A DNA stretch of 28,869 nucleotides from a virus: the IMG/VR virus record IMGVR_UViG_3300042519_001559, positions 1 through 28,869 of that record; one strand, given 5' to 3'. Both the position numbers and the translations under genes were made by a program. Shown here piece after piece: positions 23,072-28,121 of this stretch. Within the stretch, counting starts at the first letter, position 1; the number at the start of each line of letters is the position of its first letter. The notes beneath the pieces are model-generated. The model was not told the DNA's origin. It saw only the letters and a list, made by a program, of their open reading frames with translations, and made no database searches.

Positions 23072-23145
23072 TGGTAGCCCCACCGAATTTCGAGTTCGGA
23101 ACCTACAGAGTCAAAATCTGTTGCTCTACTTTGAGCTATGGGGCG
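23072..23145 (-). tRNA. tRNA-Gln (TTG)
   Basis: Cloverleaf read on the minus strand: D stem GCTC/GAGC, anticodon stem ACAGA/TCTGT with loop TTTTGAC (anticodon TTG), T stem CCGAA/TTCGG, acceptor GCCCCA/TGGGGC with a first-pair mismatch, and encoded ACCA. Confidence 0.85.
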
Positions 23146-23488: not shown

Positions 23489-23581
23489 TGGCTCTTAGGG
23501 GTGGGGTCGAACCACCATACCGCTCGGAGACGGATTACAACAAATTAACAGTTTGCCCTCTTGCCATTAGAGTACCTAAGA
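23489..23581 (-). tRNA. tRNA-Asn (GTT) with long variable arm
   Basis: Acceptor TCTTAGG/CCTAAGA, D stem CTC/GAG, anticodon stem GCAAA/TTTGT with loop CTGTTAA (GTT), T stem GGTGG/CCACC, encoded GCCA. The variable region is about 23 nt and can pair CCG with CGG, unusual for tRNA-Asn. Confidence 0.78.
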
Positions 23582-23583
23582 TT

Positions 23584-23670
23584 TGGTGGGTTCGGCAGAA
23601 TTCGAATCTGCGATGTCCTTGCGGAGACGGATTAAAAGTCCGTTGGTTTCAGCCACTTACCTACAAACCC
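23584..23670 (-). tRNA. tRNA-Lys (TTT) with long variable arm
   Basis: Acceptor GGGTTTG/CGAACCC, anticodon stem ACGGA/TCCGT with loop CTTTTAA (TTT), T stem GCAGA/TCTGC, encoded ACCA. The ~15-nt variable region holds a TCC-GCAA-GGA hairpin, unusual for tRNA-Lys. Confidence 0.8.
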
Positions 23671-23877: not shown

Positions 23878-24045
23878 TTATTTAGCAGATTGGTTCGTTT
23901 TTTCAAGCGATTTTTTTAATTCTAGTGAAATTTGTATCAAATGTTCAGAATTGAATGGTGAATTGTAGCCTGTTGGTTTTGGATTGCTTGCCAAATATTC
24001 CAAAGCTTTGATGGCTTGTTGGTCACAGTTATTAATGAATTTCAT
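23878..24045 (-). CDS. Hypothetical protein, 55 aa
   Basis: Unknown small protein (begins MKFINNCDQQAIKALEYLAS), helical N- and C-termini around a Pro/Tyr linker. Its ATG overlaps the stop of the 147-aa gene (ATGA, 24042-24045), strong support for coupling. It is the last clear gene before the terminator. Confidence 0.6.
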   Translation of the reverse strand: MKFINNCDQQAIKALEYLASNPKPTGYNSPFNSEHLIQISLELKKSLEKTNQSAK

Positions 24046-24485
24046 TTGTTTGTTTTTTCAAGGAAAATTTTGTCAATAATTCCAATTTGTTGTTTTAGGT
24101 CTTCTCTTTTATCTTGCAATGTTCTTACGATCCCATCTTTATTTTTATCATTATAAGATTCAATTTCAATGATTTCGTCTATGGTGAACACGGAATCATC
24201 AGCTTTTTTGATATTATACCAAGTTCCCCAATAATCCCAATCGTATTCAAATTCAAGACCATTCCATTGAAAATCTTTATATGTGGGAATATGATCACTG
24301 TTCAATCTGAATTGGGTGATCCTAGTCCTCACAATTCTATCAACAATCTCACCGGAAATCCAACCTTTGGATAAAATCTCCTTTGCCCATGTTTCGGCTT
24401 GGTTATCAATTTCCTGTTTCTCCAATTCTTTCTTTCGTTGTTCCAATTGCCAGATTTGCAATTCGATGTCGCTTATCGTTTTCAT
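24042..24485 (-). CDS. Hypothetical coiled-coil protein, 147 aa
   Basis: N-terminal coiled coil (DIELQIWQLEQRKKELEKQE) and a second helical segment near the C-terminus (LQDKREDLKQQIGIID) around an aromatic middle (YDWDYWGTWYNIKK). Function unknown; probably an early host-takeover or regulatory protein. It has its own TTAAAAACTA-type promoter, with the -10 6 nt before ATG 24485. Confidence 0.65.
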   Translation of the reverse strand: MKTISDIELQIWQLEQRKKELEKQEIDNQAETWAKEILSKGWISGEIVDRIVRTRITQFRLNSDHIPTYKDFQWNGLEFEYDWDYWGTWYNIKKADDSVFTIDEIIEIESYNDKNKDGIVRTLQDKREDLKQQIGIIDKIFLEKTNK

Positions 24486-24491
24486 GTCTCT

Positions 24492-24510
24492 ATTGTATTC
24501 TAGTTTTTAA
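24492..24510 (-). promoter_or_regulatory. Early-type promoter with TTAAAAACTA element
   Basis: Minus strand: TTAAAAACTA, GAA, TACAAT, then 6 nt to ATG 24485. The -35 (TGGAGT at 16-nt spacing) is poor, suggesting the spacer element does the recognition. Confidence 0.6.
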
Positions 24511-24731
24511 GGCACTCCAGCCCGCAATCGTTTTGATCTTCCGGTGTGATAGGAATTACTGGCAGCGAACAGCTTACCCTTCTCTTCGTAGATTGGAACC
24601 CTACCAAAGCTGATCATATACCAGAGAAAGTGGATGTCAATCCTTTTGTCCATGCAGATGTGGATACCAAACGAAATATCGGGGTATCCGAAATCGGTGA
24701 TCCAGAATCTTTTAATCTTGTGGAATTTCAT
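24507..24731 (-). CDS. Hypothetical protein, 74 aa
   Basis: Compact aromatic protein (FHKIKRFWITDFGYPDISFG, FLWYMISFGRVPIYE), probably beta-rich; function unknown. ATGA overlap with the upstream gene at 24728. The stop lies inside the TTAAAAACTA promoter of the next gene. Confidence 0.58.
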   Translation of the reverse strand: MKFHKIKRFWITDFGYPDISFGIHICMDKRIDIHFLWYMISFGRVPIYEEKGKLFAASNSYHTGRSKRLRAGVP

Positions 24732-25075
24732 GATAAATTGTAATGTGCCTTCTTCACCAGATCGAGAATCCCCTTATGTTCCACGCAACAGTTCAGGAAT
24801 TTCAACCAGTCCCCAACACCAAAATTCTCAAGAAACGCAGCCTTGAATTCGGGATTCCAATCAAGGTATTCGTATTCATTCCCGTGGAAGGTTTCTTTTT
24901 TATTGATTACCGCTGGTATGATGTTGTTTGGTAATCCCTCCCACCCAATCGTTGGTTTTTGTTCGGGGTCTGATAGCAATTCCGCTTCGGTTGTAATACC
25001 ATCCCCCGTGGCAAAGTATTCAAAAACCGCTAGGGAATAATTCTCAAGGTGTTTCGGTAGTCCTGTTATTGTCAT
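24728..25075 (-). CDS. Hypothetical protein, 115 aa
   Basis: Soluble, acidic, with Trp/Phe-rich C-half (AAFLENFGVGDWLKFLNCCV). Function unknown. Overlaps the upstream gene by 32 nt and the downstream gene by 4 nt; a typical member of the small early operon. Confidence 0.58.
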   Translation of the reverse strand: MTITGLPKHLENYSLAVFEYFATGDGITTEAELLSDPEQKPTIGWEGLPNNIIPAVINKKETFHGNEYEYLDWNPEFKAAFLENFGVGDWLKFLNCCVEHKGILDLVKKAHYNLS

Positions 25076-25298
25076 ATTTTAAAATTTCATTTGATAATTC
25101 GTCGTATATCCAATTCTTCCTACCCTTTCCAAAGATATTCAGAATCCGATTCCAAATTCTTTCCCATAGGGTAGGATAGTAATACATGATGATCGGCTCT
25201 GGATCAATCTCAACAGTCCAATTACCTTCCAATTTTCGGATTCCCTGTTTCACTTCAACTTTTTCAAATTGTATTTCAACGGTCTTCTTCATGTTCAT
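25044..25298 (-). CDS. Hypothetical protein, 84 aa
   Basis: Beta-strand-rich N-half (TVEIQFEKVEVKQGIRKLEG) and an amphipathic Trp-rich segment (TLWERIWNRILNIFG). Function unknown. ATG 25298 or 25292 may be used. Confidence 0.55.
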   Translation of the reverse strand: MNMKKTVEIQFEKVEVKQGIRKLEGNWTVEIDPEPIIMYYYPTLWERIWNRILNIFGKGRKNWIYDELSNEILKYDNNRTTETP

Positions 25299-25395
25299 TC
25301 TTATCCTTACACGTTCTTTTCCACTTGAACCATTTCAACCACTTACAGGTTGAGGTTTCGGTTTTGATTTTCTTTCGTAGCTTTTTGTATTTCAT
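25276..25395 (-). CDS. Possible tiny basic protein, 39 aa
   Basis: ATG directly follows the preceding stop (25396). Highly basic, with a Lys/Trp pattern (CKWLKWFKWKRTCKDK). It overlaps the next gene by 23 nt. Coding is plausible because it fills the only gap in the operon, but it is short. Confidence 0.45.
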   Translation of the reverse strand: MKYKKLRKKIKTETSTCKWLKWFKWKRTCKDKNEHEEDR

Positions 25396-25740
25396 TTAAT
25401 AGATGGATCTGGAGTCATCATTGAAAAAACTTTGAATCTTTTCCATCGCTTCTCGAATCTTTGCGTTTTTAAGTTCAATATCTCCCATACCCCTAGCATC
25501 CCCCAAGCTATTCAATAGGATTCTCATGAAATCATGTAGCCCCATGTTTTTATTCGTCAATCTCCAATGAATTTCATTTTTAGCTGACTCAATCGCTAAT
25601 TTTTCATTACCGTCAAACGTCTTAGCTAAATTCAGTCTTTGGACATCATCCATCATATTTGGGGTGATTTTCAGGGAAGAATTAACCAATGATACAATTG
25701 TATCATCCCCATCTTTTTCTACTTTATATTTCAGTTTCAT
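25396..25740 (-). CDS. Hypothetical protein, 114 aa
   Basis: Start ATG 25740 (MKLKYKVEKDGDD) gives an ATGA overlap with the upstream stop; the longer frame to 25791 is less likely. Mostly helical, charged. Unknown function; likely early. Confidence 0.6.
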   Translation of the reverse strand: MKLKYKVEKDGDDTIVSLVNSSLKITPNMMDDVQRLNLAKTFDGNEKLAIESAKNEIHWRLTNKNMGLHDFMRILLNSLGDARGMGDIELKNAKIREAMEKIQSFFNDDSRSIY

Positions 25741-26018
25741 GACATTCGGGATGCTTCCCAATTCGTTAAAGGTGTCGAATTGTAATGGCAATCAATGTCA
25801 TGGACTTCCCGCCAATTTGCGAGACGGGATAGCTCGATGGCTAGATCATCTGCCAATTTCCTTTCAGCGGCAAGCTTATCAATATTATCGTTTAACATAT
25901 TGATAATATTCTGTAAGGAATCACGAGAACCGATATATAGTTCCCCACATTCCGCGATTTCCAGCTTGCCGTTTTTCCTTCGATGAAGGACTACTTGACT
26001 TGGTTCTCCTGTGTTCAT
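25737..26018 (-). CDS. Hypothetical protein, 93 aa
   Basis: Central coiled-coil-like helix (LQNIINMLNDNIDKLAAERK) preceded by a short beta segment. Function unknown. ATGA overlaps at both ends indicate strict translational coupling within the operon. Confidence 0.6.
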   Translation of the reverse strand: MNTGEPSQVVLHRRKNGKLEIAECGELYIGSRDSLQNIINMLNDNIDKLAAERKLADDLAIELSRLANWREVHDIDCHYNSTPLTNWEASRMS

Positions 26019-26335
26019 AATTCTATTTTTAAATTTTTAACTTTGGAATGAACTCCGTATATTTTACAACACTTGTTACATATGGTTGAAGAACACCACA
26101 CCCCCGTTGACCTTCCAATTTTCAGGGTTCCACAATGGGGACATTTTAGAAGAAACGTCCAAATGGTTTCTTTGATTGGATTTCCCCAAGAATCTATTCC
26201 CTTGAATGGATCACCATACAAATCTGTGTTTGCGTCCCATATTTCTTCGGGTAGGGAATATGCATACACAATATGTTCTTCAGGAATCATTGTTGGTGAT
26301 CTGAAATCCGTCCCCATTTCTTTACCTATGTTCAT
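26015..26335 (-). CDS. Zinc-ribbon hypothetical protein, 106 aa
   Basis: C-terminal zinc ribbon: CPHCGTL then, 13 residues later, CSSTICNKCCKIYG, giving CxxC...CxxC. Such proteins bind nucleic acid or protein; the target is unknown. The N-half contains a Trp/Gly loop (GIDSWGNPIKETIW). Coupled by ATGA to the 93-aa gene. Confidence 0.62.
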   Translation of the reverse strand: MNIGKEMGTDFRSPTMIPEEHIVYAYSLPEEIWDANTDLYGDPFKGIDSWGNPIKETIWTFLLKCPHCGTLKIGRSTGVWCSSTICNKCCKIYGVHSKVKNLKIEL

Positions 26336-26338
26336 AAT

Positions 26339-26629
26339 TTAATCTGTAATATAACACAAATCCCATCTTTCGCAAACAAAATTGAGACTATCCTTGATAA
26401 ATTCCCGCATTGTTTTATCATTGTTTGGTTCAATAGCTTCAAACCAAACCCCTCTAAGTTCTGATAGGAATGAAAAATCTTTTATAAATTCCTGTTTCAA
26501 CGAATCATCGGGTAGCAGTAGCAATCCCTTTGAGTAATTTTCAATGTCTATTGCGACCTGAAAATCATATTTTCCTTCTTCAAGATCGACAATGGTTGCA
26601 TTGTTTTTAGTTCTTATGTAATGTGTCAT
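26339..26629 (-). CDS. Hypothetical protein, 96 aa
   Basis: Acidic, mixed alpha/beta, unknown function. It begins 11 nt after the tRNA-Trp gene on the same strand, so the transcript probably carries tRNAs and mRNA together. Start ATG 26629, no clear Shine-Dalgarno. Confidence 0.58.
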   Translation of the reverse strand: MTHYIRTKNNATIVDLEEGKYDFQVAIDIENYSKGLLLLPDDSLKQEFIKDFSFLSELRGVWFEAIEPNNDKTMREFIKDSLNFVCERWDLCYITD

Positions 26630-26639
26630 ATTTTGAAAG

Positions 26640-26713
26640 TGGCACAGGGAGAGGGTTTCGAACCCCCACCAACCGATTTGGAATCGGACATACTGCCGTT
26701 ATACTATCCCTGA
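26640..26713 (-). tRNA. tRNA-Trp (CCA)
   Basis: Acceptor CAGGGA/TCCCTG (first pair T:T), anticodon arm CCGA/TCGG with loop TTCCAAA (CCA), T arm GGGGG-TTCGAAA-CCCTC, encoded GCCA. Confidence 0.86.
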
Positions 26714-26715
26714 AT

Positions 26716-26789
26716 TGGAGCGGGTGGAGGTAGTCGAAACCTCGTCTTCTGAGTGGAAGTCAGTTGCTCTACCGTTGAGCTACACCCGC
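26716..26789 (-). tRNA. tRNA-Gly (TCC)
   Basis: Acceptor GCGGGTG/CACCCGC, D stem GCTC/GAGC, anticodon loop CTTCCAC (TCC), T arm GAGGT-TTCGACT-ACCTC, encoded TCCA. Confidence 0.88.
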
Positions 26790-26791
26790 TT

Positions 26792-26869
26792 TGGTAGGAG
26801 GAGTCAGATTTGAACTGACGATCTTTGGAGCATGAATCCAATGCTTTAACCTGACTAAGCTATCCTCCA
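26792..26869 (-). tRNA. tRNA with CAT anticodon (Met or Ile2)
   Basis: Acceptor GGAGGA/TCCTCC with a T1:T72 mismatch, anticodon stem TTGGA/TCCAA with loop TTCATGC (CAT), T stem GTCAG/CTGAC, encoded ACCA. Either elongator Met or a lysidine-modified Ile tRNA. Confidence 0.85.
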
Positions 26870-26886
26870 ATTGTTTTTTTGTTGAC

Positions 26887-26980
26887 TGGTTACGGAGGCA
26901 GGATTTGAACCATTTATGCGCGTTTTTGTAGCCTTCGCCTTATGAGGACGACGAGATCGACCAGACTTCTCTACTCCGTG
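26887..26980 (-). tRNA. Initiator-like tRNA (CAT), with insertion
   Basis: Initiator marks: C1:A72 mismatch, A11:T24 D-stem pair, CTCATAA loop, encoded ACCA. The three GC pairs of the anticodon stem are missing (TCGTC/GGCGA). Between variable loop and T loop there are ~18 extra nt; removing TAAAT would restore T stem GCAGG/CCTGC. May be functional with an odd fold, or decayed. Confidence 0.7.
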
Positions 26981-26993
26981 TTTGAAGTTATAT

Positions 26994-27221
26994 TTAATCA
27001 TGATATTCCGGTTTGTCAATGGGAAACCACATCCACTTCGGCATTTTTTGTAAATCGAGATACGTTCTCCCGATTCCGGGGCAGTCCCATATCTCAACAC
27101 TCCGTTCATCGTCTTTGTAATTTTTGGAATGTGTGAAATATTTCAATTCTGGATTTTCGGATTTTTTCTTTATCACCCAATAATACCCAAAGGTTTCCGG
27201 TAGGTTTGGTTCAAATTTCAT
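26994..27221 (-). CDS. Hypothetical protein, 75 aa
   Basis: Trp/Tyr-rich small protein (ETFGYYWVIKKKSENPELKY, KMPKWMWFPIDKPEYHD), of a size common among phage early genes. Unknown function. It leads the transcript that runs through four tRNAs. Strong TTAAAAACTA promoter with the -10 exactly 6 nt before ATG 27221. Confidence 0.65.
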   Translation of the reverse strand: MKFEPNLPETFGYYWVIKKKSENPELKYFTHSKNYKDDERSVEIWDCPGIGRTYLDLQKMPKWMWFPIDKPEYHD

Positions 27222-27227
27222 GTTCCG

Positions 27228-27246
27228 ATTGTATTCTAGTTTTTAA
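27228..27246 (-). promoter_or_regulatory. Early-type promoter with TTAAAAACTA element
   Basis: Minus strand: TTAAAAACTAGAATACAAT, identical over 19 nt to the site at 24492-24510, then 6 nt to ATG. Confidence 0.65.
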
Positions 27247-27611
27247 AGACAATTTGCAGCCATCCTTGCCATGTTCCATCCTTCCGTGGTCGGCTCAAAC
27301 CGCGCACATACGATATGTCCGTCTCCCAGAATGTGGGGATCAAGCTTTCCAAAGTATTTCAAATCGATGTGGCAACGCAATAATAATAATTTATCGCCCT
27401 TGAAAGTGGTGCATCCCTCGTAATTCACCAGAAGGATCATTCCCCTTTCCAACTTTTCCTCTTTCAGAACCTTAAACTTGAAAGGGTTTGGATTGGGGGC
27501 ATAAACCTTTTCCTTTGGAATCCTTAGAAAATTATTGATCGTTGAACTCGATGCCGTTTGGGGCGTTGAGTTGCTGTCACTGCTTTTTGATAATCCGATT
27601 GCCAATCCCAC
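27243..27611 (-). CDS. Hypothetical protein, 122 aa
   Basis: Ser/Thr-rich N-terminus, then a beta-rich part with YEGCTTFKGDKLLLL and HILGDGHIVCARFEP. The first residues are small and hydrophobic (MGLAIGLSKSS), not a convincing signal peptide. Unknown function. Start GTG 27611, 9 nt after the -10 of its promoter. The stop overlaps the next promoter. Confidence 0.58.
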   Translation of the reverse strand: MGLAIGLSKSSDSNSTPQTASSSTINNFLRIPKEKVYAPNPNPFKFKVLKEEKLERGMILLVNYEGCTTFKGDKLLLLRCHIDLKYFGKLDPHILGDGHIVCARFEPTTEGWNMARMAANCL

Positions 27612-27620
27612 GATGGCTTT

Positions 27621-27648
27621 ATCTTAGCCTAGTTTTTAAACAAGTCAA
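27621..27648 (-). promoter_or_regulatory. Early-type promoter with TTAAAAACTA element
   Basis: Minus strand: TTGACT, 16-nt spacer containing TTAAAAACTA, TAAGAT, then 9 nt to GTG 27611. Confidence 0.62.
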
Positions 27649-28121
27649 GCATACAATTCGTCCTGCATTCCCGCAAGATATTCCCCATCCAATTCGCGGA
27701 TCATCTTGGATTGCGCCACGATGTCGGGATTGATGATGATCACGGAAAGGTTCTCGTTCCGAATGTCCCCCTCTCCCGTGTTCTTGTAGAAAGCCAAATC
27801 GTATTGATCCAACCCTTTCACGAAACCGTAGCCATGATCGGAACCGTCATCGGGCAAAAGCTTGGGGAAAACGCTTCCCATTCGTAAAACCAATTCATAC
27901 AAATAATATTTATTATATTTTCCCTCGTCATTTATCATGAAATCAGCACGGATCAAAGCCTGTTGTTCCGTGCCGCAATGGGAACCAGATTGGTAATCGT
28001 TCTTGGACGCTCTGGCGGATGATCGGAAAACCTTGATGTATTCCATTCCTACAATATCTTTCAATTTCGTGGTGGGGGTCAATTCCTGAATGTCATAGAA
28101 GGATTCCAAAAGTGTTCTCAT
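27645..28121 (-). CDS. Unknown protein, possibly ADP-ribosyltransferase-like
   Basis: 158 residues. Order of elements: KVFRSSARAS, then SHCGTEQQALIRADF, YYLYELVLRMG, a DDGSDHGYGF turn, and FYKNTGEGDIRNENLSVIII. The Arg/His-Gly-Thr start and late Glu loosely recall ART folds with an HYE/RSE-type site, but I cannot confirm it. The N-terminus (RTLLESFYDIQELTP) carries the late leader with LLE/IQE sites. Late TAAATA element 5 nt before ATG 28121, so it is probably expressed late and possibly packaged, as T4 Alt is. Confidence 0.5.
   Translation of the reverse strand: MRTLLESFYDIQELTPTTKLKDIVGMEYIKVFRSSARASKNDYQSGSHCGTEQQALIRADFMINDEGKYNKYYLYELVLRMGSVFPKLLPDDGSDHGYGFVKGLDQYDLAFYKNTGEGDIRNENLSVIIINPDIVAQSKMIRELDGEYLAGMQDELYA

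Follow-up and report, generated by a model that had tools for sequence, protein, structure and literature searches.

Few bacterial molecules are as well conserved as initiator tRNA, and factor binding should suffer where an insertion divides its T stem. Why, then, does a large phage carry an initiator-like tRNA with extra bases in its T stem? We asked this of a fragment of a large myovirus (an IMG/VR record of 28,869 bases; "the window" denotes this whole stretch), which also encodes a portal protein (phrog_213), a helicase, a tail sheath stabilizer and a ribonucleotide reductase. The explanation we favor, to which we assign a probability of roughly 0.55 as a whole, is that the tRNA is a functional phage initiator of a phage-specific structural class, in which the T-stem insertion would most likely serve to exclude EF-Tu.

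ARAGORN calls ten tRNAs in the window and Rfam eleven, the one missed by ARAGORN lying at 23075-23145 (54.1 bits, loop TTTTGAC, Gln-TTG). ARAGORN places a tRNA-Met(CAT) at exactly 26887-26980 on the minus strand. Covariance scoring, which a sequence-only reading of the locus had proposed as a check, gave an RF00005 (general tRNA) match at 26890-26980 of 30.4 bits, slightly above the gathering score of 29; this is the lowest-scoring tRNA of the array because of the insertion. Its parts are as follows.

26887 to 26980, minus strand: initiator-type tRNA-Met(CAT), 94 nt with encoded CCA (ARAGORN, RF00005, direct reading)
26974 to 26980, minus strand: 5' strand of the acceptor stem, CACGGAG, positions 2-7 pairing with 26892-26897; C1 is unpaired with A72
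26953 to 26971, minus strand: D arm, GAGA-AGTCTGGTCGA-TCTC, with A11:U24; D-arm sequence common to the window and contig L030
26935 to 26951, minus strand: anticodon arm, TCGTC-CTCATAA-GGCGA, anticodon CAT at 26942-26944
26922 to 26934, minus strand: expanded variable region, AGGCTACAAAAAC, 13 nt versus 5, found by alignment in the long subfamily only
26920 to 26921, minus strand: T-stem positions 49-50 (GC), paired with 64-65 (GC, 26898-26899)
26914 to 26919, minus strand: T-stem insertion GCATAA, on the 5' strand only, ending in AA as in all T-insert initiators
26912 to 26913, minus strand: A51 (26913), pairing with U63 (26900), and a bulged U (26912), 5' of G52-G53
26901 to 26911, minus strand: tip of the T arm, GG-TTCAAAT-CC, from the sequence

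Read 5' to 3', the molecule is CACGGAG TA GAGA AGTCTGGTCGA TCTC G TCGTC CTCATAA GGCGA AGGCTACAAAAAC GC GCATAA A T GG TTCAAAT CC TGC CTCCGTA A CCA. By the usual identity elements it reads as an initiator: C1xA72, A11:U24 (GAGA/TCTC), anticodon CAU, A73 and the encoded CCA are all present, and direct reading confirmed the C1:A72, A11:T24 and loop CTCATAA reported earlier. With bacterial tRNA-fMet it shares each of these elements, the loop included, as well as clear overall homology, and it has neither the paired 1:72 nor the C11:G24 of tRNA-Ile2 (CAU) and elongator Met. The loop had been taken as a mark of an initiator, a claim that does not stand, as many viral tRNAs with CTCATAA have G1:C72 and C11:G24 and resemble tRNA-Ile2 or elongator Met. 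What identifies the initiator is 1:72 and 11:24 together with homology, the loop alone proving nothing. The window tRNA differs from bacterial tRNA-fMet at 29-31:39-41, where only G29:C41 of the three G:C pairs is kept and U30.G40 and C31:G39 replace the others, and hence the statement that it lacks the three anticodon-stem pairs was right for two of them and wrong for the third. Since most phage initiators fail this test too (all three pairs are kept in 13/51 of normal length and 9/37 with a T-stem insert), the feature is not defining among them. That initiators are rare among phage tRNAs, as had also been supposed, is contradicted by at least 51 distinct normal-length phage initiators, recognized by a weak or mismatched 1:72 pair plus A11:U24, in the loci of one scan. 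Phage initiators already exist in annotation. The normal-length ones, such as the Atu_ph07 copy and those of window relatives, have initiator identity and a phage location, often beside tRNA-Gly or other Met tRNAs; unlike the window tRNA, they are without the T-stem insertion. The copy in Agrobacterium phage Atu_ph07 (L293) is itself unannotated (MF403008.1, 303646-303724). The window tRNA is very probably a functional initiator.

E. coli tRNA-fMet is 77 nt long. The window tRNA is 17 nt longer: its D loop has two additional bases, its variable region eight and its T stem seven, all of these last on the 5' strand; the earlier estimate of about 18 extra nt before the T loop was correct in that extra bases adjoin the loop, and needs amending in that the 17 are spread over three regions. 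The 5' strand of the T stem runs G49, C50, the insert GCATAA, A51, a bulged U, G52 and G53 (GC-GCATAA-A-T-GG, opposite CC-T-GC). Five pairs remain (49:65, 50:64, 51:63, 52:62 and 53:61), split by the insert and the one-base bulge. The excess length, and the calling of the extra bases as one block, might suggest a small intron cut from the precursor. That the extra bases flank the pairing base 51 on both sides makes this scarcely credible, since no contiguous block can be removed to give a normal T stem that keeps 51; bulge-helix-bulge and group I features are also absent, and the initiator is of bacterial type. Thermodynamic single-strand folding does not favor the cloverleaf for this tRNA. 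Of two other T-stem registers considered, a four-base-pair one (GUGG:CCRC) was rejected as fitting only some members of the class. The other, which sets G62, directly after 50, opposite 63, fits the long subfamily nearly as well (G.U in the window); it was rejected for the short subfamily, in which covariation with 63 is seen only for R51, at two bases before G52.

The plain alternative put forward with the sequence-only reading was decay, that is, an initiator tRNA pseudogene, to which the low RF00005 score and the loss of two of the three G:C pairs lend some support. We examined this in the long subfamily, whose nine members (the window, L019, L026, L028, L030, L031, L037, L058 and L067) are marked by the long variable region and an ACGYGC-motif. 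Across these nine, 98.9% of cloverleaf cells, drawn with the split T stem, are paired, and ten pairs show changes on both sides, a count that 0/500 shuffles reached. The double changes take in all five anticodon-stem pairs and three of six acceptor pairs. T-stem 49-50:64-65 is paired in 9/9 members, 50:64 showing a C:G to U:A switch, and the window's 51:63 is a G:C to A:U switch inside the subfamily. The broken stems or uncompensated changes of a pseudogene are thus not what was found. This compensatory pairing in the acceptor, anticodon and T stems therefore rules out decay; given also the intact CCA, the conserved synteny and promoter box described below, and the departure of most phage initiators from the three-pair rule, a pseudogene is extremely improbable. 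Four of the nine initiators (L026, L031, L058 and L067) additionally carry a small covarying D-loop hairpin (GGC-GNAA-GCC, GTC-GAAA-GAC).

Is the insertion a peculiarity of the window or a feature of phage initiators? We scanned IMG/VR by pattern for initiators whose T loop is preceded by extra bases and obtained 65 stretches, most of them with one recurring T-stem plan; more members came from a second scan, and two more contigs from a third that targeted the long form. The 37 distinct sequences, which come from many unrelated phages, share paired 49:65 and 50:64, an insert of 5-7 nt ending in AA, R51:Y63, a single bulged base (C, U or A) and G52-G53. As the first scan required neither the AA nor a purine at 51, their recurrence does not stem from the way the search was framed; in the second scan AAR was required, leaving A versus G free. 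R51:Y63 is G:C in 16 sequences, A:U in 21 and broken in none. When 51 and 63 are masked and a tree is built from the remaining tRNA positions, this pair switches about four times, compared with a mean of 12 and a minimum of six for shuffled labels, a count to be read as a guide because trees from 80 bases are weak; one switch separates the window (A:U) from its neighbor L019 (G:C). The comparison with other phages that had been called for therefore came out positive, and the T-stem insertion, as read from the sequences, is a conserved feature of phage initiators. The T-insert initiators form an apparently undescribed family: no description of the insertion was found in the open-access literature searched, and its novelty is likely.

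Selection, with good probability, has kept the insertion in place. Neutral or relaxed structural drift, with a few founder genes spread by horizontal transfer, would account for the variable length of the insert, for the swapping of initiator types at one locus among related phages, and for the odd variable arms of other tRNAs in the window: tRNA-Lys and tRNA-Asn (23584-23670 and 23489-23581) have long hairpin variable arms that are unusual for these tRNAs, and are also found in L078 and absent from L079. Drift is nonetheless quite improbable in light of the perfect 51:63 covariation over 37 sequences, the invariant AA and the fact that no elongator in the T-insert loci has the insertion. A second class of phage initiator, with a hairpin variable arm and a normal T stem, occurs in the L009 group, L027, L052, L056, L071 and L079, and L043 carries a T-insert and a normal-length initiator on one contig.

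The restriction to initiators was apparent among 341 distinct tRNAs parsed from loci holding a T-insert initiator: 36 CAT tRNAs have the split T stem, compared with 0/291 non-CAT tRNAs and 0/14 other CAT tRNAs, and a wider tRNA set gave the same picture. The restriction to phages emerged from a scan of bacterial and archaeal genomes, one per species for 84,980 species, which returned 27 matches. Three were true, all on contigs of rumen MAGs with phage-family genes; a bacterial origin of the insertion was rejected, as nearly all of the 27 were N runs, variable-arm tRNAs, archaeal tRNAs or chance. Among the plasmid matches listed, the top ones were 72-75 nt, which is normal length. Several cultivated phages have the insertion in a gene annotated as tRNA-Met: Streptomyces phages pSt2308, Alone3, LuckySocke, GiJojo, BRock and Blueeyedbeauty, where the T-insert initiator adjoins an ordinary tRNA-Met in the same array, and Microbacterium phage Cece; it is found as well in the uncultured 484-kb genome LR756508. 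The Streptomyces phage and Cece genes follow the window's T-stem plan, and Cece shares its long form, ACGCGCATAAGTGG; they differ from the window in sequence and in a variable region that is mostly short. All are annotated only as tRNA-Met, with the insertion unmentioned in the annotations examined. The initiators of Cronobacter phage GAP32 (L044) and Serratia phage BF (L014) likewise have extra bases in the 5' strand of the T stem; unlike the window class, these are three bases only, UUU, placed after 51 and without the AA, and are probably a separate case.

That only initiators carry the insertion would fit an attacker specific for initiators. Phage tRNAs have been proposed to evade tRNA-targeting defenses, and VapC cleaves initiator tRNA (PMC10264068; PMC12482277); more generally, phage-encoded tRNAs are an established means against tRNA-cleaving defenses (PMC10264068; PMC7824862). 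The insertion could accordingly hide the phage initiator from a host toxin or nuclease (VapC-type, initiator-modifying or cutting the T arm), such that translation starts survive loss of the host initiator, and the D-loop or variable-arm hairpins of some initiators look as if surface change were favored. We consider this unlikely: known attack hits the anticodon region and not the T stem, the insertion occurs in phages of very different type, and the combination of a covarying, maintained geometry and an invariant AA points to a specific shape as opposed to free variation.

The surroundings of the initiator gene bear on its expression and history.

26991 to 26997, minus strand: TTAAATA late-promoter-like box, ending about 10 nt before the initiator tRNA
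26792 to 26869, minus strand: second CAT-anticodon tRNA, elongator-like, with C11:G24 and a normal T stem
26716 to 26789, minus strand: tRNA-Gly(TCC) (ARAGORN), the constant neighbor of the initiator in relatives
26640 to 26713, minus strand: tRNA-Trp(CCA) (ARAGORN and Rfam)
26339 to 26629, minus strand: 96-aa ORF (MTHYIRTK...), 3' of the tRNA group in the window and in L079

The second CAT tRNA, which adjoins the initiator, has U1xU72, the loop TTCATGC and G at 37, and could be Met or Ile2. The 96-aa ORF, 89-90% identical to the copies in L074-L076, served as a query to find relatives. The portal of the window has counterparts, mostly 71-93% identical, in forty-seven contigs, and we ran a covariance model of initiators on 44 related records. 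An initiator-like tRNA lies beside tRNA-Gly(TCC) in the related jumbo-phage contigs G047, G049, G055, G066, G069 and G082; at the same position, G060 and G061 have a CAT tRNA with C1xU72. L076 has two initiators followed by an elongator Met. The initiators at this locus differ in kind, being of normal length, with a variable arm or with a T insert, which points to a place that is conserved and a molecule that is exchanged or remodelled. In L294, L303 and L322, too, TTAAATA ends about ten bases ahead of the tRNA, and L037 and L298 have a similar box. With this box ahead of it, the initiator probably heads a late operon.

It had been suggested that a phage initiator could support a leaderless regulon. 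The part of this concerning the window's genes held up, as they look leaderless: Shine-Dalgarno-like sites occur in 4% of 24 ORFs, compared with 10% after shuffling, and 50% of the longer ORFs have a TAA[AG]TA box no more than 18 nt from the start, compared with 4% after shuffling. About a dozen genes in the 24042-28121 region have a T4-late-like TTAAATA/TTAAGTA box 5-6 nt before ATG, and TTTAAAAACTAG...TACAAT stands about 6 nt before the starts of the ORFs ending at 24485 and 27221, with a similar arrangement before 27611; both promoter-like arrangements end at the start codon. The part that would have the insertion serve leaderless translation did not hold. The L028/L030/L037 group has the leaderless-type pattern of the window, whereas the L019, L026 and L010 groups combine T-insert initiators with Shine-Dalgarno sites at 55-61% and no TAA[AG]TA box, and close relatives with leaderless-type promoters carry initiators without the insertion. 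Across the groups tested, the insertion and leaderless translation are thus not coupled; having an initiator of its own may still help a phage in such translation.

The same uncoupling weighs on the proposal that the insertion improves docking in the P site or with IF2, its AA making an A-minor contact with rRNA or a factor, and thereby raises initiation, also on mRNAs that lack Shine-Dalgarno sites. Positions 51-52 of the T stem hold a motif linked to IF2 binding (PMC11231383), the AA is invariant and 51:63 is never broken, and the window phage is nearly without Shine-Dalgarno sites. The insertion is, however, found in phages that use such sites and is missing from leaderless relatives, and we regard improved docking as distinctly unlikely.

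We return to the exclusion of EF-Tu. In this model, late transcription of the tRNA operon would start with the initiator, which would depend on host enzymes for its processing, on host MetRS for charging and on the host transformylase for formylation; in the 22 related records searched, no phage-encoded formyltransferase or deformylase was found. IF3 was found only in GAP32 and BF, jumbo phages that pair an IF3 gene with the UUU T-stem bulge in their initiator. The charged and formylated phage initiator would then load ribosomes for phage mRNAs. EF-Tu affinity is set by the T-stem pairs 49:65, 50:64 and 51:63, and tRNA-Sec has antideterminants against EF-Tu at 49:65 and 50:64 (PMC11231383). 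The insertion sits within these three pairs and beside 51-52. It could bar EF-Tu, keeping an abundant phage Met-tRNA from elongation even if unformylated or with a weak 1:72 mismatch. Its location inside the affinity-setting pairs, together with the tRNA-Sec precedent, is why we favor EF-Tu exclusion. Bacterial tRNA-Sec is analogous in that 49:65 and 50:64 work against EF-Tu, and differs from the window tRNA in that this is achieved by base-pair identity and a longer acceptor, with no stem insertion, in an unrelated tRNA (PMC11231383). The insertion is not needed in the window's phage group, because the closest relatives have normal-length or variable-arm initiators.

In E. coli, EF-Tu is already kept off by formylation together with the 1:72 mismatch, and given these an added barrier might be superfluous. 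By analogy with tRNA-Sec, EF-Tu exclusion is a tentative reason for the insertion. At slightly less than even odds, we see here an undescribed class of initiator in many large phages, dedicated, protected and distinct from that of the host, whose insertion replaces or reinforces the EF-Tu barrier or adds a contact with IF2 or the ribosome.

Altogether, phage annotations of "tRNA-Met" hide different molecules. Given that cultivated Streptomyces phages carry a T-insert initiator beside an ordinary Met tRNA, the claim is testable at the bench. One design, confined to initiators and held by covariation in several kinds of phage, suggests that phages alter the start of translation.
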